Shown: positions 10,342 to 45,304 of the stretch, piece by piece
Layout: the number at the start of each line of letters is the position of its first letter
How positions within the stretch are numbered: position 1 is the stretch's first letter
Source: Anthopleura xanthogrammica
Taxonomy: Eukaryota; Cnidaria; Anthozoa; Actiniaria; Actiniidae
Assembly (NCBI GenBank): GCA_964019055.1
Contig: OZ025207.1
Location: 8,938,007-9,002,006, forward strand
Reading direction: 5' to 3'
Length of the DNA: 64,000 nt
Position numbers and translations under genes: made by a program
Notes under the pieces: model-generated
What the model was told of the DNA's origin: nothing
The model's input: only the letters and a program-made list of their open reading frames with translations
Databases searched by the model: none

Positions 10342-10541
10342 NNNNNNNNNNNNNNNNNNNNNNNNNNNNNNNNNNNNNNNNNNNNNNNNNNNNNNNNNNN
10401 NNNNNNNNNNNNNNNNNNNNNNNNNNNNNNNNNNNNNNNNNNNNNNNNNNNNNNNNNNNNNNNNNNNNNNNNNNNNNNNNNNNNNNNNNNNNNNNNNNNN
10501 NNNNNNNNNNNNNNNNNNNNNNNNNNNNNNNNNNNNNNNNN
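10342..10541. other. Assembly gap, exactly 200 N
   Basis: Exactly 200 Ns indicates a placeholder gap rather than a measured distance. DDX27 is cut off just before it, and sequence after the gap shows no DDX27 motif. The stretch before the gap (10223-10330) reads as an open frame ending ACAT|GTAAGC, but a 39-bp intron would separate it from DDX27 exon 9 and it has no helicase motif. Confidence 0.98.
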
Positions 10542-11578
10542 ATTTTCCTGCAGTAACATCGATAGCTTGTTTTTTTCCCCTAATCTTTTTCTATTTCTTT
10601 TCCTTGTCTATTCCACATTTCATTCCTTCTTTCACTTTTTTCTCCTTTTTTATTTCTATTTCTTTCTTATCATTTCTCTGGATTGTTCTTCTTATTGTTT
10701 TTTTTTCAACGAAATTCCTTGATTTTTAAAGGTACTAAAATAAAGCTGACTATGTGACCTATTATAAAAAAACTATGAATATATATAAGCTAACTCTGAT
10801 GATCTAAAATCTTATCCTAAACAAAAATGAACATTATATGATTGAGTACAAATTAATCTTTGATTTCCTCATGAAATCTTTTCGTTATGCTGTAGCACCA
10901 CATGCAGAATCACAGGTCAGTACTTCATGTGGACAAAGACTGAGTGACTAAAGACACAAACTACTCACATGATGTCTGACATGACGTGCCACTGCCCCAG
11001 TGAAATTCTCGGTTAATGCTTCATGTTTTCATAAAGTGAGCTCCCAGAAAGGAATCAGTAATCCCACCCAGTATCCCATGACGTGTTGTCCCATGGCTCA
11101 ATCCAAAACTGTTGACGTGTTCTCAATGACAAGATCCGAAATACGGGGATTGGACCTTAGTGCTTTGAGTGAGAGAGAAAATTAAAGCGAGGGTAGAGGA
11201 GTAAAGATAGAAGAATGGAAATAAAAGAGATACAAGGACAATGAAAGGAGATTGGAATCGCGAAAAAAGGAAATGAAAAAAGAAGAAAAAGAGTGAATGG
11301 AAAGAAATGTGTGTAGGAGTGTAAATGTGTTTGTGTAAGTAGAAAAGAGTTAGAGTGAGAAAGTGTATGGTAAGGAAAATGTATGCGAGATAAGGTATGT
11401 GAGAATGAAAGTGAATGTTAAGTTGATGAATGTAAGAAAGGATGACTAAGATAAAAACACAAGTGAACAATTCCTGTATTTCAGAACTTGTATGTCCAGT
11501 ACATTTTCATGCTTAGTTTCCATGGCTACCAAGGATTGTAACCAAAAACCAAAGACAACCACTTGATAACGACTTTAG
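10542..11578. other. AT-rich DNA after the gap, no clear gene
   Basis: It starts with a pyrimidine-rich block (10560-10730), then AT-rich DNA, then a purine-rich block (11170-11460). A 20-nt segment at 10896-10915 has good flanking AG and GT signals but is too short to call. 10975-11105 is one arm of an inverted dispersed repeat (see 13265-13405). Confidence 0.5.
10975..11105 (+). repeat. Dispersed repeat, inverted partner of 13265-13405
   Basis: Reverse-complemented, this block reads CACGTCATGGGATAC, then GGGATTAC, CATGAAG, CGAGAATTTC, GCAGTGG and ACGTCATG. The same words occur in the same order at 13265-13405, at roughly 75-80% identity by eye. The 2.2-kb inverted arrangement could be the two ends of a larger element or two independent copies. 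Confidence 0.55.
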
Positions 11579-14520
11579 AAGCCATTGAAAAACTACAACA
11601 GGACATAGAAAAGCTGAATAAAGTATGACGACATGAGAAGGGAACTTCCTGGTAAACTGGAAATAATTTCAAATCTAAACTAAGAATCGTATTCAATGTT
11701 TTCCCTTGACTTATATTTAAAACTGTGGCTCATACATACATGTATTTTGTAGAATTAGCCTTGCTATTCAGAAAAAAAGGATACGATTTACGAGCACCAA
11801 GTGCGCATTTTTTTATTTCTTGGGAAAAGAGAGTATTTATATGTATTCTCTGTGGTCGTGGGTTCGATTCTCCGACGTTTGACCAGGATCGTATGTTGGT
11901 TCTCTCCTGTCCATCAAAGGAAAGTTTCTCTGATTTCTGATTTTCTCCAAAATTTACATGTTTACACTCTACTTCGAATTCTCATTCAAATTTATCAAAT
12001 TTATATATTTTATGCAATGGGTGAGGTATCAGTAAAATGTTCTTCTAACACCGCTTTGTTTCTCAAGGTTGTGTCCATGGTTCGATTCCTGCAGACACCA
12101 CACGTGAGCTGATTTTGTTATTTCTCCTTTTCTCAAGGGGTTTTCCCCGGGTTCTCCGGGTTTCGTCCCTCAGTAAAAATCACCATAAGTGATTTGGATG
12201 TTGGGTATATTGTAAACAGTAATGTATTGTGTACCAAAGATCCACTATGGGGAGTGGTCTGTAGTAACAAAAGGATATTGCGAATGTATTAAAAACATAT
12301 CTATAAGACTACTGTTTCGTAGGGAATATTCTGTCACGTAAAAGTACTCGCATGAAAATCTTTGAGCTAACTTTTATCAAGTAACTGAAACATGGCAATG
12401 ACTAGACATAGATAGAAGGACATATCTAATATTGGCTGTTTGTGGATGACAAAAAAAATGATTAGCTCTATCAGCTGCAGATTTGAATTCTGTAAAAGTG
12501 ATGAACCACCATCTCAGTTTTATTTCAATATTTCAAAAAACACACTGTCTTCAAAACCTTTGAACTGAGTTTGATCGAACAAAGATTCTATACGAGTGCA
12601 AGTCAAAGAAACACTATCTAACATAGTCTTACAATATCACCTTCACCTGCAGATTTGATCTCTGTAAAAGTGATGTACCACCATCTTTGTTACCTATCCT
12701 TATCTGTCCTAAAATGCTTTAAGATGGGTGGGTTTGATTCCAAATCGTTTCTGTTTCAGATCATCAAAGTAACACATCATATAATATAGTCTTGTAAACA
12801 ATTCTAACAATATCACCTTCAGTTCCAGATTTGATCTCTGCAAACTGATGAGGCAAGTCTGTCAGGTACAAATTACAAGACTGACATCTCTCACTAATGT
12901 AGGGTCAAGTTAGAAAAGGTATTACTATAAACAATAACCACAGGTAGCCCAGTAGTCACGTGACTACCTTATTAATATGCAAATTGACCGAGTGACAAAT
13001 AAACTTGACTATTATTAGACAATGATTGAAATCTAGTAACTAGAATATTATTTAGGCTAAATTTAAATTTGATTTTTTCGAATCGTAGCAGATTTTCTTT
13101 TTCCTTTCTAATCTACAGTATCCTGACACTTTATCATGCACTTTCAGTCTCCTACTGTAATCTGCCAATGACTGCCAAAGTAACTTATCAAGTGATTTGC
13201 TTTGATTTTTGCTTAGAATCCCCGAGAAAACCATGGAAACCAAGTTTGAAAATGTACTAAGAACACGTCTACAGTTGTAGATTGTGCTATGGGATGACAC
13301 GTCATGGGATACTTGATGGGATTACCGTTCTATTCCTGGTAACTCACCTTGTGACTACATGAAGTGCCAACCGAAATTCTCGCTCGTGCAGTGGTACGTC
13401 ATGGAAGACACCTTATAAATACTCCATGCCTTTAAGAATGAATGTTCTGCATCCATGAAGTAATGACCTGGAATTCTACAAATGACACCACATATTAACG
13501 AGAAAATTTCTTGATGAGATTCAAGATTAATTTGAGCTCAATCATATTCCGCTGTGAAATAATACCTAACTAATGAATTAATTCAAAAAACTATATTATT
13601 ATAAATACTTTGATATGCCTGTTGCTAGGTGATTGTCTTTCACCCCTGAATTGTTTATCAGACCTTAACAACATGACATGGTCCGTCTTAGATTCGATGA
13701 GTACAAATATAAAGGACGCTATGGAAAAAATTGGCGCAATACGATCACAGACTTAAGTAGATATTGTAGATATTGACAATGAGAAAAGAACTTGCCCAGT
13801 AGTCATAGATCACCTCTCAACATATTCAGATTCGAAGCAAATGGTTTCAATTTTTTTTTGGAATTTCTTTCTAGATAACACTTTTGTGAGTAAACTGCCT
13901 TCTAGAAAGATAGGTGCCATGATCGGAACTTCAAATAGTTGTTTCTGTTACTTCTTTGATTATGTTATGTTACTGGTTCTATCAATTTTATCTTTATTTC
14001 CAAATGATGACGCAGCAAGCTAGTCACACATCATCTATTCTTCCATAATGAATGTAACATGGAATAGGTGTTCTGTGCTTATCAGAGGGCGCTGTTGCAT
14101 GCAATCATTTATTGAGCTACTTGTCTCTCGAGAGAATGTGTTGCAAGATACAGTAAGTAAAGGACGATTCAACTTTTCCTTCTGCAACAAAAAACCGTAA
14201 AAATAGAGGTGGCGCGTGTTCCTGTTACGTGTTTCCTACGAAACCAGTTGCATCAGAAACATTGCAGCTAAGAGCACGTGTGGTCAACTGCATTGTGAAA
14301 TGCAAAGTATGTTCGAATTACATTAACAGAACAGAAAATGAGATAACTGGCCGGTTAAAAGATCTTGAAGTAAAAGAATGACTTGAAAGCGAATGTCTTA
14401 GATGATATTTTTAGACAGACCAACGGACCAATGGAGCCTCCGACCCTCCCCTCCAAGATACCAAAGGATCAGCACCTCCCATACAAACAGCACTACTCCC
14501 AAGGACCCTTATCGTTTCTG
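11579..14520 (+). CDS. Possible plus-strand coiled-coil gene, scattered exons
   Basis: Three segments look exonic. 11579-11622 (acceptor CGACTTTAG, donor AATAAA|GTATGA) reads AIEKLQQDIEKLNK. 14330-14369 (acceptor ATTAACAG, donor TTGAA|GTAAAA) reads TENEITGRLKDLE. 14415-14520 (acceptor TTTTTAG, donor TTTCTG|GTATGT) continues in phase as TDQRTNGASDPPLQDTKGSA and beyond. A fourth, 13662-13756 (LNNMTWSVLDSMSTNIKD, MEKIGAIRSQT then stop), has a good acceptor but no in-frame donor. The heptad character resembles the minus-strand micro-exon gene, and this locus faces it tail to tail. Connections between these exons are not proven, start and end are unknown, and chance open frames cannot be excluded. 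Confidence 0.35.
11800..11960 (+). repeat. Degraded tRNA-derived SINE
   Basis: A B-box-like GTGGGTTCGATTCTCC at about 11856 is followed by TTGGTTCTCTCCTGTCCATC. This is the same order as the well-preserved SINE at 60675-60985. The A box is not clear and the core is eroded. Confidence 0.4.
12040..12260 (+). repeat. tRNA-derived SINE, partial
   Basis: B-box-like ATGGTTCGATTCCTGC lies near 12078, then GTGAGCTGATTTTGTT, then the family core with GGGGTTTTCCCCGGG, TTCTCCGGGTTTCGTC and CAGTAAAAATCA. The core corresponds to 60800-60865. The 5' tRNA part is weak. Confidence 0.5.
12465..12860 (+). repeat. Three diverged tandem units of about 170 bp
   Basis: TGCAGATTTGAATTCTGTAA, TGCAGATTTGATCTCTGTAA and TCCAGATTTGATCTCTGCAA recur at roughly 12477, 12651 and 12825. 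Shared companions are GTGATG.ACCACCATCT, AACATAGTCTTACAATATCACC and GTAACACATCATATAATATA. The spacing is about 170 bp with substantial divergence, so this is an old tandem repeat. Confidence 0.6.
13265..13405 (-). repeat. Dispersed repeat, inverted partner of 10975-11105
   Basis: See 10975-11105: the same words appear in inverted orientation (CACGTCATGGGATACTTG, GGGATTACCG, CGAAATTCTCGCTCGTGCAG, GTACGTCATG). The flanks (13000-13265 and 13405-13660) are AT-rich without a gene I can support. Confidence 0.55.
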
Positions 14521-15776: not shown

Positions 15777-18700
15777 TTTTTCGATGTTCTTGATGGCGTC
15801 TAGCTCAGCTGTTGCATCTTTGAGTACTCTACAAGATATCAAACACATCATTAAGCATTACGGTTATATACACCTACTTACAAAATATCTGCCATGCTGA
15901 ATACTAACGATGCGATGTTGTGTATTTAATAGACAGACTCTTATGAAATAATAGCTAGTTATCTTTTATCCGCATCAAAATACAGGTGGTTTGAAAACTT
16001 CGCCAAAATTGCTAGTATTATCTCAGTTACTAGGTGACATTATGTCTAGTAGTATTATCTCAGTTACTAGGTGACGTTATGTCTAGTAGTATTATCTCAG
16101 TTACTAGGTGACGTTATGTCTAGTAGTATTATCTGAGTTACTAGGTGACGTTATGTCTAGTAGTATTATCTCAGTTACTAGGTGACGTTATGTCTAGTAG
16201 TATTATCTCAGTTACTAGGTGACGTTATGTCTAGTAGTATTATCTCAGTTACTAGGTGACGTTATGTCTAGTAGTATTATCTGAGTTACTAGGTGACGTT
16301 ATGTCTAGTAGTATTATCTCAGTTACTAGGTGACGTTATGTCTAGTAGTATTATCTCAGTTACTAGGTGACGTTATGTCTAGTAGTATTATCTCAGTTAC
16401 TAGGTGACGTTATGTCTAGTAGTATTATCTCAGTTACTAGGTGACGTTATGTCTAGTAGTATTATCTCAGTTACTAGGTGACGTTATGTCTAGTAGTATT
16501 ATCTCAGTTACTAGGTGACGTTATGTCTAGTAGTATTATCTGAGTTACTAGGTGACGTTATGTCTAGTAGTATTATCTGAGTTACTAGGTGACGTTATGT
16601 CTAGTAGTATTATCTGAGTTACTAGGTGACGTTATGTCTAGTAGTATTATCTCAGTTACTAGGTGACGTTATGTCTAGTAGTATTATCTGAGTTACTAGG
16701 TGACGTTATGTCTAGTAGTATTATCTCAGTTACTAGGTGACGTTATGTTTAGTAGTATTATCTCAGTTACTAGGTGACGTTATGTCTAGTAGTATTATCT
16801 GAGTTACTAGGTGACGTTATGTCTAGTAGTATTATCTCAGTTACTAGGTGACGTTATGTCTAGTAGTATTATCTGAGTTACTAGGTGACGTTATGTCTAG
16901 TAGTATTATCTCAGTTACTAGGTGACGTTATGTCTAGTAGTATTATCTCAGTTACTAGGTGACGTTATGTCTAGTAGTATTATCTGAGTTACTAGGTGAC
17001 GTTATGTCTAGTAGTATTATCTCAGTTACTAGGTGACGTTATGTTTAGTAGTATTATCTCAGTTACTAGGTGACGTTATGTCTAGTAGTATTATCTGAGT
17101 TACTAGGTGACGTTATGTCTAGTAGTATTATCTCAGTTACTAGGTGACGTTATGTCTAGTAGTATTATCTCAGTTACTAGGTGACGTTATGTCTAGTAGT
17201 ATTATCTCAGTTACTAGGTGACGTTATGTCTAGTAGTATTATCTCAGTTACTAGGTGACGTTATGTCTAGTAGTATTATCTCAGTTACTAGGTGACGTTA
17301 TGTCTAGTAGTATTATCTGAGTTACTAGGTGACGTTATGTCTAGTAGTATTATCTGAGTTACTAGGTGACGTTATGTCTAGTAGTATTATCTGAGTTACT
17401 AGGTGACGTTATGTCTAGTAGTATTATCTGAGTTACTAGGTGACGTTATGTCTAGTAGTATTATCTCAGTTACTAGGTGACGTTATGTCTAGTAGTATTA
17501 TCTGAGTTACTAGGTGACGTTATGTCTAGTAGTATTATCTCAGTTACTAGGTGACGTTATGTTTAGTAGTATTATCTCAGTTACTAGGTGACGTTATGTC
17601 TAGTAGTATTATCTGAGTTACTAGGTGACGTTATGTCTAGTAGTATTATCTCAGTTACTAGGTGACGTTATGTCTAGTAGTATTGAAGCATTATTTCAAG
17701 TTATGTAGCATGATATACTCACATCTGTTCATCCGTCAGTTTGCTGTTCTTGAGCTGTAGACACAAAAATATCACCAATTACTATAATTAGCTATTAACC
17801 CATTGGCACCAAGACATCCATGTGAATTATTGGCTTATTGGGTTTTCTTTTCACACAAAGTAGTTTATTCTTCACTTTGTTTATTTTCCTCAGTACTTTC
17901 ATACATAACAGAGATCTCCTTACCTTGGTTTCTTCCAGTTCCTTCTTCACTCTGAAATTGCAATTTAAATAATAACATAGTTCAAATAATGTAATAACTG
18001 ATAACGGTAATCTCCCTTTGTCCCTTCTCCTGTATGTTCATGGTGACCAACCACTCTGAACCAGTGATTCAGCAAACTACATTAGTAAGCTATACTTACC
18101 CCTCCAACTCCATCAGAAGCAAATCCATCTTGCTCTGTAGACACAAACATCATTGTTAGCTTATTACACATTCACTCTGCACGCTCGATTTCAAAATTTT
18201 TCAAGAAAAAAAGTCATTATTTTAACATAGTCACTTCCTTTCATCGATAACAGAGTTTTTCATACCTTCATTTGTCCATTTTCGTTCTTTTCACTGTAAT
18301 TGTTTATGAAAATAGAAAATTGTTCAAATGTTAATTACTGAGAACAAGCCCGAAAAGTAATAATAGATTACTTCTCCCAGGCCAGTGTGCTCTAGATGAT
18401 CCACAGTGGACCATGTATCTAACCCCTTGCTATAGATGACACAAAGTGTGCACCAACTACCCTTGCTCTAGATGATCCATAGTGGACCATGTATCGAACC
18501 CCTTGCTATAGATGACACAAAGTGTGCACCAACTACCCTTGCTCTAGATCATCCACAGTGGACCAAGTATCGAACCCCTTGCTATAGATGACACAAAGTG
18601 TGCACCAACTACCCTTGCTCTATATGATCCACAGTGGACCAAGTATCGAACCCCTTGCAATAGATGACACAAAGTGTGCATCAACTACCCTTGCTCTAGA

Positions 18701-21700
18701 TCATCCACAGTGGACCAAGTATCGAACCCCTTGCTATAGATGACACAAAGTGTGCACCAACTGCCCTTGCTCTAGATGATCCACAGTGGACCAAGTATCG
18801 AACCCCTGGCTACAGATGACACAAAGTGTGCATCAACTACCTTTGCTCTAGATCATCCACAGTGGACCAAGTATCGAACCCCTTGCTATAGATGACACAA
18901 AGTGTGCACCAACTGCCCTTGTTCTAGATGATCCACAGTGGACCAAGTATCGAACCCCTGGCTACAGATGACACAAAGTGTGCATCAACTATCCTTGCTC
19001 TAGATGATCCACAGTGGACAACGTATCGAACCCCTTGCTATAGATGACACAAAGTGTGCACCAACTACCCTTGCCTTCATCATCTAACAGTGGACCACCT
19101 TCCCTAAAGACACGATTCACAATAAGATATACTTACGCCTCCAAATCCGAGTTCGTGATTTCCATTTTGATCTGAAGAAACATACGTCAATGTCAGCTTA
19201 TTAGATACAGTTTACGTCTCTTGATTTAGAAATTTTCTTGTCTAGGAAGGAATAATTTCTTCTTACCTTTGCTTGGTTTAGTTGATTCTTTTCTCTGAAA
19301 TTGAAAATTCATTAATAAATTTGTTAAAATAATCACTGATAAGAGCTGATGTTACCTCCCCCTAGCCCTTTGCTCTAGATGACCCACAGTGGACAATCCC
19401 CTCTGAACCTGTGATTCAACACGCTGCGATAAAAAAAGAATATACTTACGCCTCCAACGCCGAGTCCACGCCTTCAATCATGGTCTGTAGAAACAAACAT
19501 CAGTGTTAACTTGAATAAATCTTTGAATGGCATTCAGATTCCATATGATTAAAAATACATCAAGTCAGAGACAAAGCATTGCATTTATATTATAATTATT
19601 GTTAGCTTATTAGATTATTTTTACGCTTGATGTGGGAATTAAAGAAAATATAAAGAATCGTCTTTCAATCGATAGCAAATTTCTTCTCACCTTCATTTTC
19701 TCCATCTCTTTCTTCCCACTGGAATTGCAAATGAAAAGATAAAACGAGTTGAAATGTTAATTATTGTTATCAAGTTTCAAAAGAGATACTAGATAACCTC
19801 CCTCAGGTCCCTTCCTCTACATCATCCACGGTTGAAAACCTCCTGAACCTGCTTTTCCTTTCAGTAACCATGTCCCTGAGCCTGTGATTTAGTACACTGC
19901 GACAATGAGATATACTTACGACTCCAACTCCGTCTTTAAAGCTTCCATGTTGTTCTATAGAAACAAATATCGTTGTTAGTTTATAACATATTGTGTATCG
20001 TTGGTTTGAGACGTTTTGAAGTAAGAACTTTATTCTGTACATATTTATTTTGTTAAACATCAACATATTTCTATTTTACCTTTAGTTCTTGATTTTTGTT
20101 CTTCTCCCTGGAAGTATGAACGTATATGAATAACATAAGATATACATGTAGATATGAAGTGATCAGTCATGTTGCAGTTTGAATATCCACAGTGAACGAA
20201 CTATTGAACTTGTTCCCCTGTAAGATAATGGTGGACCAACCACTCTGAATTTGTGATGCAGCAAACTACATTAGTAAGATATACTTACCCCTCCACTTGC
20301 AACACCAGCGATTCACTCTTGATCTGTAGAAACCAACATCATTGTTAGCTTATTAGACATTCACTGTGGACGCTCGAGTTGATGATTTTTCAAGAAAGAA
20401 GATTATTTTTATAAAGTCCTATTCTTTCATCTATAGCAGATTTCTTCTTACCTTCATTCGTGCCTTTTCGTGCTTTTCACTGTAATTTCACATGAAATAA
20501 TAAAATGGTTCAAATGTTAATTACTGATAACAAGTTTGAAACGTAATGATAGATTACCTTCCCCAGGCCATAGATGACACAAAGTATGCACCAACTACCC
20601 TTCCTCTAGATGATCCACAGTAGACCATGTATAGAACCCCTTGCTATAGATGACACAAAGTGTGCACCAACTACCCTTGCTCTAGATGATCCACAGTGGA
20701 CCATGTATCGAACCCCTTGCTATAGATGACACAAAGTGTGCACCAACTACCCTTGCTCTAGATGATCCACAGTGGACCATGTATCGAACCCCTTGCTATA
20801 GATGACACAAAGTGTGCACCAACTACCCTTGCTCTAGATGATCCACAGTGGACCATGTATCGAACCCCTTGCTATAGATGACACAAAGTGTGCACCAACT
20901 ATCCTTGCTCTAGATGATCCACAGTGGACCATGTATCGAACCCCTTGCTATAGATGACACAAAGTGTGCACCAACTACCCTTGCTCTAGATGACCCACAG
21001 TGGACCAGGTATCGAACCCCTTGCAATAGATGACACAAAGTGTGCACTAACTACCCTTGCTCTAGATGATCCACAGTGGACCATCCCTTCTGAACCTGTG
21101 ATTCAACACGCTGCGATAAAGAATATACTTACGCCTCCAACGCCGAGTTCATGCCTTTAATCTTGGTCTGTAGAGACAAACATTAGTGTTAACTTTGAAA
21201 TCTTTGAATTGCATTCAGATTCCATATGATTAAAATTACATCAAGTCAGAGACAAAGCATTGCATTTATATTATAATTATTGTTAGCTTATTAGATTAGT
21301 TTTACGCTTGATGTAGGAATTTAACAAAGGATAAAAATCGTCGTTCAATCAATAACATATTTCTTCTCACCTTCATTTTCTCCATCTTTTTCTTCCCACT
21401 GGAATCACAAATAAAACGATAAAACGAGTTGAAATGTTATTAGTGATATCAAGTTTCGATAGTGATACTAGATTACCTCCCTCAGGTCCCTTCCTCTACA
21501 TCATCCACAGTCGAACACCTCCTGAACCTGCCCTTGCTTTCAGTAACTCATATCCCTGAACCTGTGTTTTAGTACACTGCGACAATGAGATATACTTACG
21601 ACTCCAACTCCGTCTTGATAGCTTCCATGTTGTTCTATAGAAACAAATATCATTGTTAGCTTATAAGATATTGTGTATGGTTGGTTGGAGACGTTTTGAA

Positions 21701-22310
21701 GCAAGAACGTTATTCTGTACATATTTATTTCGTTAAACATCAACATATTTCTATTTTACCTTTAGTTCTTGATTCTTGTTCTTCTCCCTGGAAGTATAAA
21801 CGTATATGAATAACATAAGATATACATGTATATATGAAGTGATCAGTCGTGTTGCAGTTTGAATATCGCTACTATTGTCTAACACAGGGAGCCCATGAAA
21901 CGTCATTTAATTAGATACTTACATGTGAAGCTCCGAAGAAAGATCTTGGATCGTTTGCTAAAAGAGAAATGATTCCCATCATTAGCAACCAATAACACAT
22001 ATATAAATTTAAAATATAATAAAAGTATTGAATTTTAGATCACTTTTTTTTAGGGTATTTCTTCATACCTTTCTCTGGTCGTTCACATTTGCAAATCTGA
22101 AAATATCAAATATTGGAAAACAATCACAGAAACAGTTAACTCTCAGGACTATCAATATCTTCTAATACTGATAATGAAGGGTTTGGTGTTTATCCAATAT
22201 ACCAAGCCAGAAGAGAGGAATCACAGGAATAATTGACCTATAACCCACTAGTTAAGGGCCATTTATTTATCAGTATCCCAGAGTTACTGTCACGTGTTAA
22301 CCGAATAAGG

Positions 22311-22356
<46 letters not shown>

Positions 22357-25300
22357 CATTATTATCATTATTAAGTCGTTATTACCCCTCCCCTCCCCTC
22401 CCTGGTCTAACATACTTAGACACTTAGAATACTCACGCTTGCAGGTCTTGGAAGTTTTTTCGCTGCAAATAGAAATATCTACCGTTATCTACATGATGTC
22501 TAAAAACCTAATCATTGGTTAGCTTTTTATGCAAAAAAAAAAAAAAAATGTAGCATCCTGGATTACCCCTCTGTTCCAGATTGCAGTTGCATCCACCAGT
22601 TACCTTGGTAACGAGGTGTTTATCTTTCACATTAAACATGTTCATTAAGAATAGCGTTTTGTACTCGTGTTTTTGTTGGGTTTAAATCAGAAGTTCTTTT
22701 AAGGTCGGTGAAACGTAGATAAAACTAAAGAATCTTCTTACCTTGATGATGTCAATTTGCTTCTTGTACCTGAAAACGCAAAGATAAAAATCGTTATTTT
22801 TCTTGTTCTGTTCACTGCAAGAAGGCAGGGCTGAAGATAACTGAACTCAACCCCCTCCCTACAACCCCACCCCATCCAAGAAGGCTGTGCTCTTGTTGAC
22901 CCACGCAACATTGTACACTTTCTATACTTACATCTTGATGTCTTCGCTGGAGTTTCTCAGCAGCATCTGCAGCAAAAATATCAATTATCAAGAGTCAGCC
23001 ATTTGAAAAAAGATATCGATTCTGTCCTCAGTGAATTGTGTTTTCTTACCTTATGGAGAAACCGTTTCCAACCAAGACTGAAACATCAGAGTAAATTGAA
23101 AAGAAATTATTGACAATACAATATAAAATATCCTCTTGTGAATAGATATAAATATTTTCTTGTTAGTTATTCCAGATACATGAGATATGTTGGATCTTGA
23201 ACCAGGCTGAGCACACTAAGCATTGTGGGTCAAGATAGTTGAAGCTCATGCCAGTTTACACCACTCAGTGTTGGTGTGGTTAAAGAACCTTTTGCCTAAT
23301 ATTCTAGTCTATATAGGAAAATATGTTTTCAGTTGTGAAGGTGCTGTTCAATCCACTTGAATCATTTAGAATCCAGTAAAACGTATTGAATTAGCTGGTG
23401 AGATGAGATTACGCTCTAGATTACATACTATTAATATTGATACAGGCTCTAATACTCACGACTTGATCTTGCTATCTTTCTCCTTTATTATGATCTGATG
23501 ATGAAAACAAACAGAATCATGAATATTATTATCATTCTTTTGAATATATTCCTGTGTTTCAGGAGGAGTTCAATCACTTCAATACCTCTAGAGTTTATTA
23601 CCTTTAGTTCTTCATTATCAGCTGCCAATCTGAAAATGTCAAAGAAATTTTTCATAGTACGTTAATCACAGTTTTGAATTAAGAAAGAGTTGCAAGAGAA
23701 TCATTTTTAGTCATATAGATGGAGTAGTTAGGGACTTAGGACTAATGACGTGATATATGGAGAAATCAGGGAAAATAAAGGTCAAAGGTCATAATAACGT
23801 TCTTTGATGACAGTTCCCTTTCCATCTAATCTTTATCCCTGGTCTAGCTCCAATACTTACTGTTCGTTGTTGGCAGTTTTAGATTTTGATAGGCACTGAA
23901 GTTAGAAATAATAGTCATCGTCATTAGTTAATAATAGACTAAGTACTAGATTAGTCAAGTACTTTATCTTGACAAGTCTGCATGGCTGATGCACGGCATC
24001 GCTCTCATTAGATTTCAAGGATATTAAGTTGTTTTTTGTGATTGTTGATTGGTTAAGAGAAGAGGTTGCAACACCACACTCGATATCTGAAGAAATCTGC
24101 TCTAAAATGCCTTACCTTGCCATCCATTAATTCCTTCTTGAGGCTGAAAAATAAAAAATGAAAACATTCCAATTTAAATAATACTTAATTTTGAACACTT
24201 TTGTAGTTCACATCAGATGAAAAGAATGAGTATCCCACGTTGTATGAATCCCTTGTTGAGGATGACTCCCCTATTCTAAATAGCACATTTAGAATACTTA
24301 CATTTTCGCCTGTGCTGCCTTGGCATTCAATTTACACTACGCAGAAGGTTGAAAAAAATATGTTAGCTTTTGTTTTAACCAGTAACACTGCAGAACAGAC
24401 ATTTATACGAATGGAAATCTACTATTTTGTAAGGGGTGAAAGTTATAATATCTCTGGAACATTCTTTTTGCCTATGAAATGTTACGTGTCTTTACGTGTT
24501 ATTTTCTTACTTTTAAATTCTCGTTCTCCTTCTGGATGCTGCAACGACGAATAGACGATAAAATAAAATGTTACTGACGTTTCTGAACAGTTTCAGGGAG
24601 CTCAAATGGTTGCAATTGGTATCTGTTACTAACAGCTTTGTGGACCCCAATTAGAATACTATCAAAACTAAGCCAACTTTCTCCTTTCTCATCTCTTTTT
24701 TTTTTCATTCCCCTACTCCCACTCCCCTTCCCCTTCTTTTGTCACAGACAAGACGGTCAATAACACTTCATTTTCAAGATAGTACTTACTCATTCCGGAT
24801 CTTCTTGGTAGACGTGAACTCGTTCTGCCGATAAAAAAAAACAATTATTATCCATTAGTGTTATATCCAGCTGTACGAAAAACTAAGCGCGAAAAGGATT
24901 GTTGTTGTAATTCAAGCGGCCCTCGCCCGAGTCTTAAAACCCTCGCCCGAGTCTTAAAAGTCATATATCTCACAGAATTTGAGGAGATGGATCGCAAAGA
25001 TTTACTTTAATTTTTTAAACAACACGTATACTTTTTTTCTCTAAATTCTTTGAAACGCGTGTTTTTGTATTGGGAAGAGACTTGGAGCAAGGGCCGCTTG
25101 GCTAAGCATCGAAGCGCGCTGTGATTGGACGGTTCGTGCATGCTCCGGACACCTGGATTGCTATCCACGTGACCAGTTCAATATGGAGTTCCTCCTCACC
25201 TTTAGTTCTTCCATTTCCTTCTGGAAACTGAATTTTGTCAAAAAGAAGAACAATGTTAAGAATGTTATATATTGTTAGCTAGTTTGAGGACAGGTCTGAA

Positions 25301-27571
25301 ATGTACTTTGGTTTCTATTGGAGAATAATTTTACTGGAATAACTGATGAAGTTAGGGATGAAGAAACATGCAGAGAGACAGAAAACGTCGAGAGAAACTG
25401 GTGCTTCTAAAAATGGTGCTTTTGTATTCTGTCGTTTCTTGGGTCATTTTTTGTTTTTAAAACGTTTATTTTCTTTACCAGTAAACGCTCAAATTAGATT
25501 CGATATCTTCTTACAACGGCCAAAAAGCTCTGTTTGTTTATTTGACGTATAAAGGAAGAGACTAACATGACTAAGGTCTGTAAGGTTAACTGCATGAGCA
25601 CACAGTGATCAAGTTTAGATACTTACTCTACAAGCTGTGTAGCTTGGATCTCAACTGTCTTCTGCAGGATAATATATATTAATGATTATGATTATTAGTT
25701 GATTTGAACAAGCTTTTCTTTTAACTGACATGCATTGTACCCTTAGAGGATTTTGTACTTTTCCTTACCATCAACTGAGTGTTGGCATCAGTTGCGCTAA
25801 AACATGAAATCAAAAAGACAGTTTAGAATATTGTACCAATGAATGGGTCTCATTATATGCAGTTTGAGTCGTTTTACGTTGAAATATATACTTCAACCAA
25901 CCACAGGCTAGAAAACCAGGTAACAGGGGAAGAGAAGAGAGAAATAAGACAACAAGGGAGAGGAGGGACAACCATATATTGTCATATATTGAAGGATATG
26001 ACTAACCTTTCATGCATAGCTGTTTTCTCCTCCACCTCCAACTCCAAACTCTAGAAAACGGAAACATAGTGACAAAATAAACATTACTAGTCAACGTGGT
26101 CCCCTGGCACAGACCCCCTACCACCAACATGAGCATACAATATATTATAAAAACAAAAAACATTCTATGTTTTCCGATAAAGAAGGCTGTAACCATGGAG
26201 ATATTTACCCCATTTCGCTCCCTGAGCCTGTCAATCTCCTCCTGTAAATAATATGCATTTGTGTTAGTTGAGGTGTTTGAAGGATGTCAAGGTCGAAGGA
26301 AAAAGAAAAAGGTATCTTCAGGTAGGAATGAAAAAGAGGAAGGATAGAAGGAAAAACTAAGAGGAGAGGGGGAAGAGAGGGAAGAGAGGGAATGAAATGA
26401 CTGTATAGAAGGGAGAGGAGAAGTAAAGTCAGTTAATAGAATGATAAAAGATACAAATTGAAACGTTAAGAGAAAGAAAGACAAAAATAAAAAGAATAAA
26501 GATAGGTGAAAAGGGGCGGAAATATTAGAATAGGACACAAAGACTGCAAGCAGGTCTATAAAAATAATAAAAGAAAATAAAGTAAGAATAAAAAGAGAGC
26601 TGGAAAGATGGAAGAAAGAAAAGAAGTCAACTAATGAAAGATAGAAAGAAGGATAGATGGAATGAAGCAAGGAAGGAAGGAAGTCACTAAATGAAAGACA
26701 GAAAAGAGGATAAGTGACCAAGCAAGGAAAGAAACAAGGGAAAAAGAAACAAAAGAAGAAAGAAAGAAAGAAAGAAAGAACTGAAGGAAAAGAGCAAGCA
26801 AGGAAAGAAGGATGGAAAGAAAAATAAAACGATTAAGATAAAGGAAGAAAAGAAAGGATAAAAAGAAGAACTATGAAAGGAAAGAAGAAAGGAGTAAAGA
26901 AGAAGTAATGTAAAAAAGGATAGATTTAAGAAATGAAGAGTTGATGAAAGCACAGTAGAAAGGAAGGAAGAAAGCATGAAAGAAAGAAGGAAGGAATGAA
27001 GGATGAATAGAAAGATGGAAACAAGGAAGGAGGCATAAAAAGAAGGAAAAAAGGACTAATGAAAGAAAAGGATGGAAAAGGATAGAAAAATATATCAGTG
27101 TATAACAAGAATAGTTCGTTCTGAATGTGATCTTATTTCCCACTTTCCCTTATAGTATTCTTATACCTCTCTTTTATAAAGACGTATGAGAATGCTACAA
27201 GGGAATATTGGATCCCAGATTACAATCACGTTTTTTGCAATGAATATGTACACCTAATTGAAAAACGTTGTCATGGAAATACAAAAAATTGGAATTAATT
27301 AAGAATTCCTTTGGATTATCTAAAGCCTCCTAGATTGATGAGAATAATTGTTTAAGATAATACCATGATCTCCTCGGAGTTCATTGTTTTTGGAGGGCTG
27401 TTTAATGGCTAACATCCCTCCTTCATGAATAGGATGAGGGAAATTTAGAGACTAAATTTCCTTCATCTTATTCATGAGGTTGTCCCTCATGCAACCCAAT
27501 CATCGGCCGAGTCTTTAATAAAATAAATAAAGGAATGAATACATAAATAAATAAATGTTTAAATAAAGGAG

Positions 27572-27624
<53 letters not shown>

Positions 27625-27625
27625 T

Positions 27626-27657
<32 letters not shown>

Positions 27658-30600
27658 CATTATATTATATGTAAAAAAAAAAAAGGAATAAATAAAGAAA
27701 GGAATAAATAAATAATTAAATAAAGGAATAAATAAATAAATAAATAAAGGAATAAATAAATAATTCAATAAAGGAATAAATAAATAATTAAATAAAGGAA
27801 TAAATGAATAATTAAATAAAGTAATAAATAAATAATTAAATAAAGGAATGAATAAATAATTAAATAAAGGAATAAATAAATAATTAAATAAAGGAATAAA
27901 TAAATAATTAAACAAAGGAATAAATAAATAATTCAATAAAGGAAAAAATAAATAAAAAAACAAATGAATAAATAAATAATTAAAGATAGGAATAAATAAA
28001 TAATTAAATAAAGGAATAAAAAAATAAAGAAATAAAGGAATAAATAAATAAATAAATAAACGAATAAATAAATAAATAAACAAAGGAATAAATTAATAAA
28101 GGAATAAATAAATAATTAAATAAAGGAATAAATAAATAATTAAATAAAGGAAAAAATAAATAAATAAACAAGGGAATAAATAAATAATTAAAGAAAGGAA
28201 TAAATAAATAATAAAAGAAAGGAATAAATAAATAAATAAACAAAGGAATAAATAAATAAATAATCAAAGGAATAAATAAATAATTAAATAAAGGAATCAA
28301 TAAATAATTAAATAATGGAATAGATAAATAATTAAATATTGCAATAAATAAATAAATAAATAAAGGAATAAATAAATAATTAAATAAAGGAATAAATAAA
28401 TAATTAAATAATAGAATAAATAAATAATTAAATAAAGGAATAAATAAATAATTAAATAAAGGAAAAAAATAAAAAAATAAACAAAGGAATAAATAAATAA
28501 TTAAAGAAAGGAATAAATAAATAATAAAAGAAAGGAATAAATAAATAAATAAACAAAGGAATAAATAAATAATTAATCAAAGGAATAAATAAATAATTAA
28601 ATAAAGGAATCAATAAATAATTAAATAATGGAATAGATAAATAAATAAATAATGCAATAAATAAATAATTAAATAAAGGAATAAATAAATAATTAAATAA
28701 TGGAATAAATAAATAATTAAATAAAGGAATAAATAAATAATTAAATAAAGGAATAAATAAATAATTAAATAAAGGAAGAAATAAATAATTAAATAAAGGA
28801 AGAAATAAATAATTAAATAAAGGAATCAATAAATAATTAAATAATGGAATAGATAAATAATGAAATAATGCAATAAATAAATAATTAAATAAAGGAATAA
28901 ATAAATAATTAAATAAAGGAATAAATAAATAATTAAATAATGGAATAAATAAATAATTAAAGAAAGGAATAAATAAATAATTAAATAAAGGAATAAATAA
29001 ATAAATAAATAAATGAATAAATTAATAAAGGAATAAATAAATAATTAAATAAAGGAAAAAATAAATAATTAAATAAAAGAATAAATAAATAAATAAATGA
29101 ATCAATTTATAAAGGAATAAAAAAATAAATAAATAAATGAATAAATCAATAAAGGAATAAATAAATAAATGAATAAATTAATAATGGAATAAATAAATAA
29201 TTAAATAAAGGAATAAATAAATAAATAAATAAATTAATAAATTAATAAATTAATAAATTAATAAATTAATAAATTAATAAATTAATAAATTAATAAATTA
29301 ATAAATTAATAAATTAATAAATTAATAAATTAATAAATTAATAAAGGAATAATTAAATAAAGGAATAAATAAATAATTAAATAAAGGAATAAATAAATAA
29401 TTAAATAAAGGAATGAATAAATAATTAAATAAAGGAAGAAATAAATAATTAAATAAAGGAATAAATAAATAAATAAATAAAGGAATAAATAAATAAATAA
29501 ATAAATGAATAAATTAATAAGGGAATAAATAAATAATTAAATAAAGGAATAAATAAATAATTAAATAAAGGAATAAATAAATAAATCAATAAATAAATAA
29601 AGGAATAAATAAATAAATAAAAAAATGAATAAATTAATAAAGGAATAAATAAATAATTAAATAAAGAAATAAATAAATAATTAAAAAAAGGAATAAATAA
29701 ATGAATAAATTAATAAAGGAATAAATAAATAATTAAATACAGGAATAAATAAATAATTAAATAAAGGAATAAATAATTAAATAATTAAATAAAGGAATAA
29801 ATAAATAATTAAATAAAGGAATAAATAAATAAATAAATAAATAAAGGAATAAATAAATAAATAAACAAAGGAATAAAAAAAAATAAATAAACAAAGGAAT
29901 AAATAAATAATTAAATAATGGAATAAATAAATAATTAAAGAAAGGAATAAATAAATAATTAAATAAAGGAATAAATAAATAAATAAATAAATGAATAAAT
30001 TAATAAAGGAATAAATAAATAAATAAACAAAGGAATAAATAAATAAATAAATAAAGGAATAAATAAATAAATAAACAAAGGAATAAATAAATAATTTAAT
30101 AATGGAATAAATAAATAAACAAAGGAATACATAAATAAATAAATAAAGGAATAAATAAATAATTAAATAATGGAATTAATTAAATAATATAAAAAGGAAT
30201 AAATAAATAATTAAATAAAGGAATAAATAAATAATTAAATAAAGGAATAAATAAATAATTAAATAAAGGAATAAATAAATAAATAAACAAAGGAATAAAT
30301 AAATAATTAAATAAAGGAATAAATAAAAAATTAAATAAAGGAATAAATCAATAAATAAATAAAGGAATAAATAAATAAATAAACAAAGGAATAAATAAAT
30401 AAATAAATAAAGGAATCAATAAATAAATAAACAAAGGAATAAATAAATAATTTAATAATGGAATAAATAAATAAACAAAGGAATAAATCAATAAATAAAT
30501 AAAGGAATAAATAAATAAATAAACAAAGGAATAAATAAATAAATAAATAAAGGAATAAATAAATAAATAAACAAAGGAATAAATAAATAATTTAATAATG

Positions 30601-33600
30601 GAATAAATAAATAAACAAAGGAATAAATAAATAAATAAATAAAGGAATAAAAAAATAAATAAACAAAGGAAAAAATAAATAATTAAATAATAGAATAAAT
30701 AAATAAATAAACAAAGGAATAAATAAATAAATAAATAAATAAAGGAATAAATAAATAAAGGAATAAATAAATAAATAAACAAAGGAATAAATAAATAATT
30801 TAATAATGGAATAAATAAATAAACAAAGGAATAAATCAATAAATAAATAAATAAAGGAATAAATAAACAAAGGAATAAATAAATAATTTAAAAATGGAAT
30901 AAATAAATAAACAAAGGAATAAATAAATAAATAAATAAAGGAATAAATAAAAAAATAAATAAAGGAATAAATAAATAATTAAATAAAGGAATAAATAAAT
31001 AATTAAATAAAGGAATAAATAAATAAATAAACAAAGGAATAAATAAATAATTAAATAAAGGAATAAATAAAAAATTAAATAAAGGAATAAATCAATAAAT
31101 AAATAAAGGAATAAATAAATAAATAAACAAAGGAATAAATAAATAAATAAATAAAGGAATCAATAAATAAATAAACAAAGGAATAAATAAATAATTTAAT
31201 AATGGAATAAATAAATAAACAAAGGAATAAATCAATAAATAAATAAAGGAATAAATAAATAAATAAACAAAGGAATAAATAAATAAATAAATAAAGGAAT
31301 AAATAAATAAATAAACAAAGGAATAAATAAATAATTTAATAATGGAATAAATAAATAAACAAAGGAATAAATAAATAAATAAATAAAGGAATAAAAAAAT
31401 AAATAAACAAAGGAAAAAATAAATAATTAAATAATAGAATAAATAAATAAATAAACAAAGGAATAAATAAATAAATAAATAAATAAAGGAATAAATAAAT
31501 AAAGGAATAAATAAATAAATAAACAAAGGAATAAATAAATAATTTAATAATGGAATAAATAAATAAACAAAGGAATAAATCAATAAATAAATAAATAAAG
31601 GAATAAATAAACAAAGGAATAAATAAATAATTTAAAAATGGAATAAATAAATAAACAAAGGAATAAATAAATAAATAAATAAAGGAATAAATAAAAAAAT
31701 AAATAAAGGAATAAATAAATAAATAAACAAAGGAATAAATAAATAATTAAATAATAGAATAAATAAATAAATAAACAAAGGAATAAATAAATAAATAAAT
31801 AAATAAAGGAATAAATAAATAAAGGAATAAATAAATAAATAAACAAAGGAATAAATAAATAATTTAATAATGGAATAAATAAATAAACAAAGGAATAAAT
31901 CAATAAATAAATAAATAAAGGAATAAATAAACAAAGGAATAAATAAATAATTTAATAATGGAATAAATAAATAAACAAAGGAATAAATAAATAATTAAAT
32001 AATGGAATAAAAAAATAACTAAACAAAGGAATAAATAAATAAATAAATAAAGGAATAAATATACAAAGGAATAAATAAATAATTTAATAATGGAATAAAT
32101 AAATAAACAAAGGAATAAATAAATAATTAAATAATGGAATAAAAAAATAACTAAACAAAGGAATAAATAAATAAATAAATAAAGGAATAAATAAATAATT
32201 AAATAAAGGAATCAATAAAAAATTAAATAATGGAATAAATAAATAAATAAACAAAGGAAGCAATAAACAAAGGAATAAATAAATAAATAAACAAAGGAAT
32301 AAAAAAAAATAAATAAACAAAGGAATAAATAAATAATTAAATAATGGAATAAATAAATAATTAAAGAAAGGAATAAATAAATAATTAAATAAAGGAATAA
32401 ATAAATAAATAAATAAATGAATAAATTAATAAAGGAATAAATAAATATATAAACAAAGGAATAAATAAATAAATAAATAAAGGAATAAATAAATAAATAA
32501 ACAAAGGAATAAATAAATAATTTAATAATGGAATAAATAAATAAACAAAGGAATACATAAATAAATAAATAAAGGAATAAATAAATAATTAAATAATGGA
32601 ATTAATTAAATAATATAAAAAGGATTAAATAAATAATTAAATAAAGGAATAAATAAATAATTAAATAAAGGAATAAATAAATAATTAAATAAAGGAATAA
32701 ATAAATAAATAAATAAAGTAATAAATAAATAAATAAATAAAGGAATAAATAAATAATTAAAGAAAAGGAATAAATAAATAATTAAATAAAGGAATAAAGA
32801 AATAAATCAATAAAGGAATAAATAAATAATTAAATAAAGGAATAAATAAAAAATTAAATAAAGGAATAAATAAATAAATAAACAAAGGAATAAATAAATA
32901 ATTAAATAAAGGAATAAATAAAAAATTAAATAAAGGAATAAATCAATAAATAAATAAAGGAATAAATAAATAAATAAAAAAAGGAATAAATAAATAAATA
33001 AATAAAGGAATAAATAAATAAATAAACAAAGGAATAAATAAATAATTTAATAATGGAATAAATAAATAAACAAAGGAATAAATCAATAAATAAATAAAGG
33101 AATAAATAAATAAATAAACAAAGGAATAAATAAATAAATAAATAAAGGAATAAATAAATAAATAAACAAAGGAATAAATAAATAATTTAATAATGGAATA
33201 AATAAATAAACAAAGGAATAAATAAATAAATAAATAAATAAAGGAATAAATAAATAAATAAACAAAGGAATAAATAAACAAAGGAATAAATAAATAAATA
33301 AATAATGGAATAAATAAATAAATAAACAAAGGAATAAATAAACAAAGGAATAAATAAATAAATAAATAAACAAAGGAATAAATAAATAAACAAAGGAATA
33401 AATAAACAAAGGAATAAATAAATAAATAAATAAACAAAGGAATAAATAAATAATTAAATAATGGAATAAATAAACAAAGGAAGCAATAAACAAAGGAATA
33501 AATAAATAAAGGAATAAATAAATTAATAAAGGAAGAAAGAAATAATTAAATAATCAAACAATTAGATAAAGTAAGAAATAAATGAATAAACAAAGGAGTA

Positions 33601-34314
33601 AATAAATAGTTAAATAAAGGAATAAATAAACATTGGTTTAACATACCCTTTTCAATGTTAACTCAATACTACTTTCTTGAATTGCATTTTTCAGCGTCTT
33701 TAAGATAAAAAGAACTAATATGACCACCATCACCTAATGTATTGTATTATGTAATAATTATGTTAATACAATAAAGATTGGTGTTTGTATTATTTTCTCT
33801 TATTGTCTTTATTTCATCTAACTGTTCTGTATGCGTATCAATCAGGTCGTGCAGTGCTTGTTTGTTTTTCTTCACCGGTTGGTAGGTCAGTATTTTTCTC
33901 ATTCTTTTATTACAACACGCTTTCTTATGTTCTGATCGTTCTGTCATCTAATATCTTTTTTTCTCATCGTGTTTTCCTAATGTTTGTCTGTCTGTTTTCC
34001 TTCTTAACTCTTTGTCAATGTTCTTTTGCTTATTTGTTCAGTGTTTGTCTTTTTATATTTGTCTTTCCTTCACTATCTGTTTGCGTGTTTCTTTATTCAT
34101 GTCTTTCTGTCTGTCTGTTTTTTCCCAACATCATTCAACATTAGCCTGTCTTACCTTAACCTTACTGATAAGACGTTTTTTGCTCAAATCTGAAATTAAG
34201 ATAAGAAAAAGAAAACATTTACGATGTTTTGAAGGCACGCTTTGTTGCAGCACGGCGCCTTGATGAAAAATTAAACTTACAATATTGCTCTTCCTGTTGC
34301 TCGTTTCCGTCCAT
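15777..34314 (-). CDS. Micro-exon heptad gene: long coiled-coil protein built from alternating 28- and 35-nt exons
   Basis: Start exon 34281-34314 (ATG GAC GGA, donor ATATT|GTAAGT) and exon 33647-33697 (TLKNAIQESSIELTLKR) are probable; a linking exon is missing because their phases (1 out, 0 in) disagree. Then an unbroken chain: 26209-26241, 26007-26050, 25770-25797, 25627-25661, 25200-25227, 24790-24824, 24511-24538, 24302-24336, 24116-24143, 23861-23895, 23602-23629, 23460-23494, 23050-23077, 22932-22966, 22742-22769, 22437-22462, 22069-22096, 21923-21957, 21760-21787, 21600-21634, 21371-21398, 21133-21167, 20452-20479, 20289-20323, 20080-20107, 19920-19954, 19691-19718, 19450-19484, 19267-19294, 19137-19171, 18266-18293, 18100-18134, 17924-17951, 17723-17754, 15777-15828. 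Lengths: sixteen 28 nt, fourteen 35 nt, others 33, 44, 26, 32 and 52. Every 35-nt exon is phase 0 to 2 and every 28-nt exon 2 to 0, so the chain totals 1,125 nt with no stop. A pair encodes 21 residues with hydrophobics near 3, 6, 10, 13, 17 and 20, e.g. NNMEALKTELES then GKKEMEKMK. Rich in K and E; no signal peptide or TM segment. The 3' end is not determined. I do not recognise the family. Confidence 0.8.
16013..17684. repeat. 37-bp satellite, 45 tandem copies
   Basis: The unit contains AGTATTATCTCAGTTACTAG followed by GTGACGTTATGTCTAGT. About 45 copies are nearly identical. Variation is almost confined to one C/G site (ATCTCAG or ATCTGAG) and a rare C/T site (GTTTAG in copies 20, 28 and 42); copy 1 has GACAT. 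It lies in the intron between the micro-exon gene exons 17723-17754 and 15777-15828. Each unit carries a CRE-like TGACGTTA. There are no spacers, so it is not a CRISPR array. Confidence 0.97.
18388..19076. repeat. 76-bp minisatellite, array 1 (about 9 copies)
   Basis: The unit runs TTGCTCTAGATGATCCACAG, TGGACC.TGTATCGAACCCC, TTGCTATAGATGACACAAAG, TGTGCACCAACTACCC. Copies differ at a few sites. It lies in the intron between micro-exons 19137-19171 and 18266-18293. A sister array is at 20568-21083, and single degraded units occur in neighbouring introns (e.g. 19370-19420). Confidence 0.92.
20568..21083. repeat. 76-bp minisatellite, array 2 (about 7 copies)
   Basis: This is the same unit as 18388-19076, in the intron between micro-exons 21133-21167 and 20452-20479. 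The flanking exons of both arrays are also duplicates, so exons and minisatellite were copied together and the arrays then expanded separately. Confidence 0.92.
22313..22375. repeat. ATT trinucleotide microsatellite
   Basis: A run of (ATT/TTA)n with interruptions by ATC near the right end, in an intron of the micro-exon gene. The leucine-rich open frame over it is an artefact of the repeat. Confidence 0.9.
26285..27110. repeat. Purine-rich low-complexity tract (about 0.8 kb)
   Basis: The plus strand is almost entirely A and G (GAAAGAAAG, GGAAGG words). It gives long phenylalanine/serine-rich open frames on the minus strand that I do not accept as genes. It lies at the start of the largest intron of the micro-exon gene. 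As pre-mRNA from the minus strand it is a pyrimidine tract of unusual length. Confidence 0.85.
27572..27655. repeat. TCAA tetranucleotide microsatellite
   Basis: About 20 copies of TCAA with one TTAA interruption, immediately before the large AT satellite. Confidence 0.95.
27665..33640. repeat. About 6 kb AT satellite with a 24-bp period
   Basis: Units such as GGAATAAATAAATAATTAAA and GGAATAAATAAATAAATAAA, padded to 24 bp, run for six kilobases. A sub-block at 29228-29345 is a pure 8-bp repeat (ATTAATAA). Large blocks are copied inside the array: the open frames at 30348-30839 and 31092-31583 have identical translations, a 744-bp shift equal to 31 units. It lies wholly within the intron between exons 33647-33697 and 26209-26241. 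Open frames of the FIYLFIPLF type are repeat artefacts. Its assembled length is doubtful. Confidence 0.95.
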
Positions 34315-34400: not shown

Positions 34401-35647
34401 ATTAGCCGAGCGCGCGCTCTTGAGCCTTCGATGATTTGTTTGCAGCCCCGCTGATACCACAGGGAGCCCGATTTAATTAAAAGTGAAAAGTTTTATTAAA
34501 ATTGGAAAAAATCGCCTTGAATTATATATTTTTTTTCTTTAAAATTCAAGATAGTGTCGCCTATAGCTAAAGTGAATAAAAATGCAATTCAAAGGAACAT
34601 TTTTAGAATACAAGACACTGTTAAAACATGATTTCACGGCCTCACTCATTGCACTGGCACCTCTTTCGCTCGTGGTAACTCGTTTTCAGCCAGCTTTCTA
34701 TCGACTTTAACTGCTTCTGTAAATACCAACCTGTATGTTCAATCTTGAAAAATGAAATCCCCATGTTTTTCACCATTCAAAGAAGATAGCTATGATGTTC
34801 TTCAAGGTACAGGACGTAGTTCAACACTCGTTGATATCCAAAGCATGTGGTCTGATCTCTGATGGCTCGTTTACCAGCTTCACTCCAAATCAACTTCGAT
34901 TTGAAAGACATCTTTGTCGCTTTTATCACTTTTGATTTTGTCCAGTCAACTTGCTTTGAAACGTTGTGTTTTAAAATTGTCTCTTTTTTGTAGTTATGTG
35001 ACAATAGTTTCGCTAAAGGCACTGTAAGTATTACATCATGACAATGAATTAATATGTAAATGAGTTGCAAAGATCGTTTTTAATGAACTTCCATATATGG
35101 TAGCGTGACATTTGTCACGATTTATTCCTCTCGGAATTTAAATAGCATTATATTTTACTATTTTTGGATTGATAAAGCCCACAAACTAAGACGCCTAAAA
35201 TTGACAAACTTTAAATTAATGACTTGTGATTGACATCTGTACATGTTGACCGTTTGCACGTAACGTCAAAGCAGCTCAATTTGCATTGAAAAATACACAG
35301 GCAGCCCAAGCAATGGTCTTGTAAGCTTGTATACAGTGAAAATTTGTAATAAAGTTTTGTAATAAAGTTTGACTAATATTTGTCTGTAGTTGTTTTTAAT
35401 ACTATACAGATCCTTGCTACCTGGTTTTTAGCCGTTTTCTAAGCGATTTTTTATATTTTTTACCCCCTGCCATTAATAAGACAAAACAAAAGAATTTCGA
35501 TATCCTGGAACCCAATGTTTTGTTTTCCAAAATTAGCTGTATTTCCTTGTCATCATACATAAAACCCAAACATCTGAAGGTCGTGAAGGTCGCAGAAACG
35601 AAAAACCAAAACAACAACAACAAACAAATCTGAGTATCGATTGCTTA
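34401..35647. other. Intergenic DNA, no gene seen
   Basis: This is AT-rich sequence between the micro-exon gene start and the TMEM229-family gene. Near 35250-35290 there is a CACGTAACGTCAAA..AGCTCAATTTGC block resembling family F5 ends. Otherwise nothing is supported. Confidence 0.5.
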
Positions 35648-45268: not shown

Positions 45269-45304
45269 ATTCGTATTCTTATCATTGGCAGGCCAGGCTC
45301 AGAA

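Follow-up and report, generated by a model that had tools for sequence, protein, structure and literature searches.

We analysed a 64,000-nt window of the 289.8-Mb Anthopleura xanthogrammica genome (C2:8938007-9002006; coordinates without a prefix are positions in this window), which holds a minus-strand gene of about 38 tiny exons that we read as coding for a coiled-coil rod. Besides the window copy, called A, probe searches located three others on the contig: A', an almost identical stretch that lies inverted at a distance of 80 kb (C2:9.038-9.0535 Mb), and B and C, which are diverged tandem copies (C2:13.624-13.639 and 13.658-13.674 Mb). In copy A, 35 rod exons run from 26241 down to 15777, each flanked by AG and GT. 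The initial annotation of the window had listed these 35 but had overlooked three 5' exons, which were uncovered via upstream conservation, as well as the loss of the last exon. In the direction of reading, the features of copy A are as follows.

34281..34314, minus strand: exon 1, 34 nt, with the ATG (MDGNEQQEEQY); counterpart exons with an ATG and a GTAAGT donor are present in A', B and C.
34155..34189, minus strand: exon 2, 35 nt, entered in phase 1, encoding YLSKKRLISKVK; a generic dynamic-programming search (see below) finds counterparts in B and C.
33647..33697, minus strand: exon 3, 51 nt, encoding TLKNAIQESSIELTLKR; counterparts in B and C are found by the same generic search.
26242..33646, minus strand: intron 3, about 7.4 kb, containing a 5.9-kb AT-rich satellite at 27687-33630.
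26209..26241, minus strand: 33-nt exon encoding EEIDRLRERNG, the same in A and B.
26007..26050, minus strand: 44-nt exon; 33+44+28 nt give 35 residues, or five heptads.
17723..25796, minus strand: the rod, consisting of one 28-nt exon and then 14 pairs of 35+28 nt, interrupted once by a 26-nt exon; a 32-nt exon (17754-17723) closes it.
22437..22462, minus strand: the 26-nt exon; 26+28 nt give 18 residues, the rod's single register break, which is present in all four copies.
20080..21787, minus strand: a six-exon block (three units) and the beginning of its repeat, with 791 bp 91.9% identical to 19398-20187.
15777..15828, minus strand: 52-nt exon encoding VLKDATAELDAIKNIEK, with a weak donor, GTTCGT, found also in A'; 32+52 nt give 28 residues, or four heptads.
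15722, minus strand: deletion point; copy A lacks a segment here that in A' spans about 1 kb (C2:9053122-9054139) and includes the final coding exon with its basic tail and stop.

The rod exons of copy A amount to 1,125 nt, or 375 stop-free codons, and are open in one frame only. Sixteen of them are 28 nt and 14 are 35 nt long, with one each of 26, 32, 33, 44 and 52 nt; the earlier description of nearly all exons as 26-35 nt long fits 33 of the 35 and fails for the 44- and 52-nt exons. The phases run from 0 to 2 in 17 exons, from 2 to 0 in another 17 and from 0 to 0 in the first, so that 17 exons start in phase 2 and 18 in phase 0, and the unbroken phase alternation that had been reported holds from the second exon on. 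Only the 33-nt exon has a length that is a multiple of three. As neither 28 nor 35 is divisible by three, single exons are not interchangeable, and it is the pair, with equal phase at both ends, that is symmetric and constitutes the unit; 34 of the 35 exons taken singly run from 0 to 2 or from 2 to 0. A pair of 35+28 nt makes 63 nt, which is 21 residues or three heptads, and there are 14 such pairs in A and 17 each in A', B and C. The proposed equation of the exon unit with three heptads is upheld in four copies, with the amendments that the unit is a pair and that the 18-residue unit breaks the register once.

Hydrophobic residues had been noted at about positions 3, 6, 10, 13, 17 and 20 of the 21-residue unit. 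In the 14 units of A, 54 of 84 residues at these positions are hydrophobic; 5,000 within-unit shuffles average 22.6 and never exceed 34, and the runner-up register reaches 32. The corresponding count in B is 67 of 102 (maximum 42 in 5,000 shuffles). Among periods of 3.0-4.15 tried, 3.5 is the strongest in all four rods. Core occupancy and period together give the heptad pattern expected of a coiled-coil rod.

Tandem repeats are plentiful at the locus, and splice-like sites could have become aligned by chance in such repetitive DNA with no gene being present. We searched for gene chains by dynamic programming (DP), using generic splice weights and no length preference within 18-70 nt, requiring an open frame and allowing introns from 50 to 2,500 nt. 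The exon penalty was 3.0 in the final setting and in all controls, having been lowered from 10.5 before full recovery; higher penalties gave partial chains only (2, 6 or 15 exons). At 3.0, copy A yielded a chain of 35 exons (28 nt, 16; 35 nt, 13) with a score of 123.1 and 25 adjacent 28/35 pairs. This length-blind search re-found 33 of the 35 exons of the initial annotation exactly, missed the exon at 19484-19450 and the one of 52 nt, and added two false ones; all 35 are present on the minus strand where they had been placed, with 1,125 nt free of stops. No 28/35 pair appeared in any control: the opposite strand scored 13.1, without a 28- or 35-nt exon; other parts of the window reached at most 47.7 in 10 runs, without a 28-nt exon; 60 dinucleotide shuffles reached at most 44.2; and ten other genomic stretches (20 runs) reached at most 42.5.

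The further copies keep the plan, phases included, as the initial annotation had expected of homologous loci. The curated models of A', B and C comprise 41 rod exons each (28 nt, 19; 35 nt, 17), with the 33-, 44-, 26-, 32- and 52-nt exons placed alike; those of B and C were partly curated by eye, false 52-nt exons from a length-informed run being swapped for weaker 28/35-nt exons and the true 52-nt exon. A position weight matrix trained on the window for refining the copies was set aside, as it brought errors of its own. On these 41 exons the length-blind DP was exact for 36 in A', 37 in B and 36 in C, and it recovered none of them on the antisense strands. Complete frames, ATG through stop, span 508, 504 and 504 residues in A', B and C, respectively, and close with a last exon encoding a basic tail that ends in KKKKSAFKRFGKRVRQVFRRE (A') or KKKKSAMRRFGKRVRQVFRRE, followed by the stop.

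A search with this last exon hit the three other copies along with two relic exons, and did not find it in the window. At C2:13.537-13.539 Mb lies a degenerate relic that has kept two last-exon copies without a coil; with only fragments left, it was rejected as a fifth gene copy. Having lost its tail exon, copy A may encode a tail-less variant or be a gene in decay. If A were a decaying duplicate, the protein would be made by A', B and C only, and the loss of about 1 kb including the last coding exon, the tail search, with no match at A, and the existence of a related, fragmentary relic are all consistent with this. Against decay, the remaining exons, sites and frame of A are all intact, and the frame stays open some way past the 52-nt exon before a stop, so that a product ending differently could be made. 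We regard decay of A as a serious contender, albeit on the doubtful side.

Exon pairing between A and B was possible for rod exons 1-18 of A, ahead of the expansions that each lineage has of its own. All 18 pairable exons are equal in length despite 31% differing bases (69% identity), while the introns are gapped. In the four comparisons of A or A' with B or C, dN/dS is 0.233-0.259 with dS of 1.31-1.53, and it is 0.40 in both young pairs (A-A' and B-C). Bare identity does not set the exons apart; the absence of indels and the codon pattern (dN/dS) do. Accordingly, exon-over-intron identity was dropped as an argument. Together with the strand, shuffle and genomic controls and the ATG-to-stop frames in three copies, the dN/dS values leave chance alignment without a gene a negligible prospect.

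Duplications within and between the copies involve whole units. In copy A the 791-bp internal repeat contains four exons with their introns and is displaced by one six-exon block. Copy B has internal repeats of 543 bp (89.3% identity), six exons apart, and of 410 bp (88.5%), one unit apart; one-unit duplication is seen in B and C, and a three-unit duplication also in B. A' has exactly six exons more than A, corresponding to one extra six-exon (three-unit) block. Copy number has changed by whole units between A' and A and in the duplications of B. Beyond these young repeats, the units of A resemble one another, with on average 48% of positions shared among 28-nt exons (32% when shuffled) and 41% among 35-nt exons (26%), which points to units that are old as well as young. 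Unit gain and loss can be read from the DNA itself, as can the exon plan, the frame, purifying selection and the register. We suggest that the coding region grew as a unit of two exons, one of 35 nt (0 to 2) and one of 28 nt (2 to 0), was duplicated in tandem. Such a unit disturbs neither the frame nor the heptad register, and intron-to-intron recombination could therefore gain or lose units, or three-unit blocks, harmlessly. Introns at the locus also carry repeats of their own: the last intron of A (16013-17684) has 45 copies of a 37-bp repeat, compared with about six in A', and the introns of the repeated block (18388-21084) contain a 76-bp repeat array.

The two exon kinds differ in their donors. 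In A, exon-side AG precedes the donor after 14 of the 16 28-nt exons and after none of the 14 35-nt exons. Donors after 35-nt exons have G at -1 in 2 of 14 cases, T at +6 in 14 of 14 and the motif GTAAGTAT in 12 of 14, whereas those after 28-nt exons have -1G in 15 of 16 and +6T in none of 16. In B the corresponding counts are 5 of 17 and 17 of 17 after 35-nt exons, and 17 of 19 and 0 of 19 after 28-nt exons. The Fisher P values of the -1G/+6T association, 2e-5 in A and 1e-3 in B, overstate it because the units are related. Two classes of 5' splice sites, AG//GUNNN and NN//GURAG, are described in the part of PMC11732430 drawn on here. By these motifs, donors after 35-nt exons are of the GURAG kind (14 of 14 in A, 14 of 17 in B and C), whereas those after 28-nt exons are mixed (both motifs in 9, AG only in 5 and GURAG only in 2 in A; 13, 2 and 4 in B). 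We had scored a 'handedness' string from +5G/+6T; since the published class motifs show the 28-nt donors to be mixed, the claim of two pure donor classes was dropped.

Residue 21 is lysine in all 14 units of A. On a simple reading, the AAG lysine codon at the unit end doubles as part of the donor; the split codon after the 35-nt exon cannot do so, and its intron side must therefore be strong. One tentative reading, which we hold to be rather improbable, is that the heptad register fixes the places of the introns and that two places force two donor kinds, so that splicing signals and fold would be co-written and rod synthesis would sense the balance of spliceosome factors. Under such co-writing, the AAG codon of the lysine at the e position of the coil would be the exon side of the donor after 28-nt exons. 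Should separate spliceosome factors act on the two donor kinds, alternate introns of the gene would respond in concert. Branch points were considered as further support, but CTAAC 14-60 nt before acceptors occurs at 8 of the 35 acceptors of A and at 6 of B's 41, compared with 2 and 3 in a farther-upstream control, and this was too weak to use.

The introns of A have a median length of 181 nt, which would suit intron definition, and the exons are probably joined in this manner across short introns. Skipping one exon would break the frame, and skipping one pair would keep it. For neuronal microexons dependent on PRP-40/PRPF40A, the portion of PMC11463390 consulted uses a 30-nt definition, reports that a 31-60 nt class is PRPF40A-dependent as well and proposes intron definition. 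The 28-nt exons here would fall within the former definition and the 35-nt exons in the latter class, but those microexons are, as presented there, single regulated cassettes, whereas in the present gene tiny exons make up almost all of the coding region. The pairs could serve as alternative-splicing cassettes, giving a ladder of in-register rods in 21-residue steps. By arithmetic, skipping of a pair is neutral for frame and register and skipping of a single exon is not, and regulation is common among small exons as far as that portion of PMC11463390 indicates. However, we see no sign of cassette use here, and the uniformly good splice sites and short introns are as in constitutive splicing, making cassettes a doubtful alternative.

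The product has no or one proline, two or three cysteines and balanced charge. Its start, MDGNEQQEEQYYLSKKRLISKVK, shows no hydrophobic stretch by eye, so that no signal-like N-terminus was seen. The coils would pair into a rod about 55-65 nm long (56-65 nm at 0.1485 nm per residue), if the gene is transcribed as expected; its basic amphipathic tail (KKKKSAFKRFGKRVRQVFRRE in A') may bind membrane or another acidic surface. Among 5.8 billion proteins, a search that reaches predicted proteins sharing short words found no homologue, with 0 of 8,000 scored candidates at E 0.001 and, when the distinctive middle was the query, 0 of 40 at E 1. A control search with the neighbouring G protein-coupled receptor (GPCR) found 10 relatives, the best being 95% identical and the best named one, from the sea anemone Actinia tenebrosa, 44% identical, which is in keeping with an anthozoan source. 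Rfam gave 0 matches at gathering. The rod might be an unrecognised member of a widespread coiled-coil family whose other members are annotated as myosin-like proteins, given that coiled coils are often misnamed and that weak Pfam matches to ATG16, Fez1 and CENP-F_leu_zip were obtained. These matches, at 16.9-17.9 bits, fall short of the cut-offs of 33.7-34.5, no named Pfam coiled-coil family exceeds its curated cut-off (best 17.9 against 33.7 bits), a PDB search of the product gave no match, and the protein collection yielded no homologue; membership of a known family appears unlikely to us.

We favour, at a probability of roughly 0.8, the reading of the locus as a protein-coding animal gene for a long cytosolic coiled-coil rod, grown by pair duplication, its protein-coding nature being judged by comparison of the copies. 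Several observations weigh against it. The core is uneven: 12, 11 and 10 of 14 residues are hydrophobic at positions 3, 10 and 20, but only 7 of 14 at each of positions 6, 13 and 17, so that half of the core positions are hydrophobic in merely half of the units. A dS of about 1.4 is near saturation, and some of the aligned C-terminal units are perhaps not orthologous. The evidence against neutral evolution of the young pairs is modest, with nonsynonymous:synonymous counts of 20:11 (A-A', P 0.018) and 14:8 (B-C, P 0.040). Introns of A and B match as well as exons in aligned columns (68% and 69%), intron interiors being at 42% when gaps are counted. No homologue was found, although the same protein collection includes a relative 95% identical to the neighbouring GPCR. 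The proposal that the tail may bind membrane is drawn from its composition.

Around the gene, the window contains the following features.

~34456-34565, minus strand, directly upstream of exon 1: a repeat element with at least about 50 partial matches genome-wide.
35895-36449, minus strand, upstream of the gene: a 184-codon open frame for a hydrophobic protein, inside a stretch common to A and A'.
41422-42153, plus strand: an open frame which we take to encode a THAP-type zinc finger protein.
45224-46531, plus strand: the single-exon GPCR, whose relatives carry Pfam 7tm; the best named relative is adenosine receptor A1-like of Actinia tenebrosa.
49834-50286, minus strand: an open frame, presumably a reverse transcriptase fragment.
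53886-63017, plus strand: a run of open frames related to stretches in C2:9020000-9029999 and, we assume, encoding SRCR domains.
13116-13588 and 10836-11123, minus strand, downstream of the gene: no open frame, with 86% A-B identity, above that of introns or exons; an inverted relative (~73%) sits 2.1 kb off, and the stretch is present at four loci only, among the matches listed.
~10342-10541: a run of N.

In fibrillar collagen genes, 54-bp exons encode whole structural repeats. As in these genes, the exon unit here equals whole structural repeats, so that gain of exons spares frame and fold; there, however, one exon is the unit and runs from phase 0 to 0, whereas in the present gene two asymmetric exons (0-2 and 2-0) together form the unit and encode coiled coil. 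The collagen-like modularity put forward in the initial annotation is borne out by A and by the other three copies. Aphid bicycle genes, in the part of PMC9168663 considered, encode secreted effectors, and almost all of their internal exons begin in phase 2. With these the present gene would share many similar-sized micro-exons and a fast-evolving, lineage-restricted family, but its phases alternate (17 of 35 exons start in phase 2) and its N-terminus is not signal-like by eye. Micro-exon genes of Schistosoma likewise have strings of very short exons; as far as the excerpt of PMC10526429 goes, most of those exons have lengths divisible by three, 15 bp in the majority of cases, and the proteins are secreted, whereas the exons here are 28 and 35 nt, not multiples of three, and tuned to the heptad. 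In the open-licence papers searched we found no precedent for an asymmetric, heptad-tuned micro-exon pair plan, and nothing in them contradicts the earlier statement that no such family has been described.

The logic by which a structural repeat equals an exon unit is known from collagen; what is new is an asymmetric micro-exon pair fitted to the heptad. On the reading favoured here, exon modularity reaches the coiled coil, with the asymmetric micro-exon pair as its module, and the length of a coil can be seen evolving in register-neutral steps. The gene would offer a natural test for the faithful splicing of exon chains too small for exon definition, and it would represent a kind of gene that could escape annotation pipelines.

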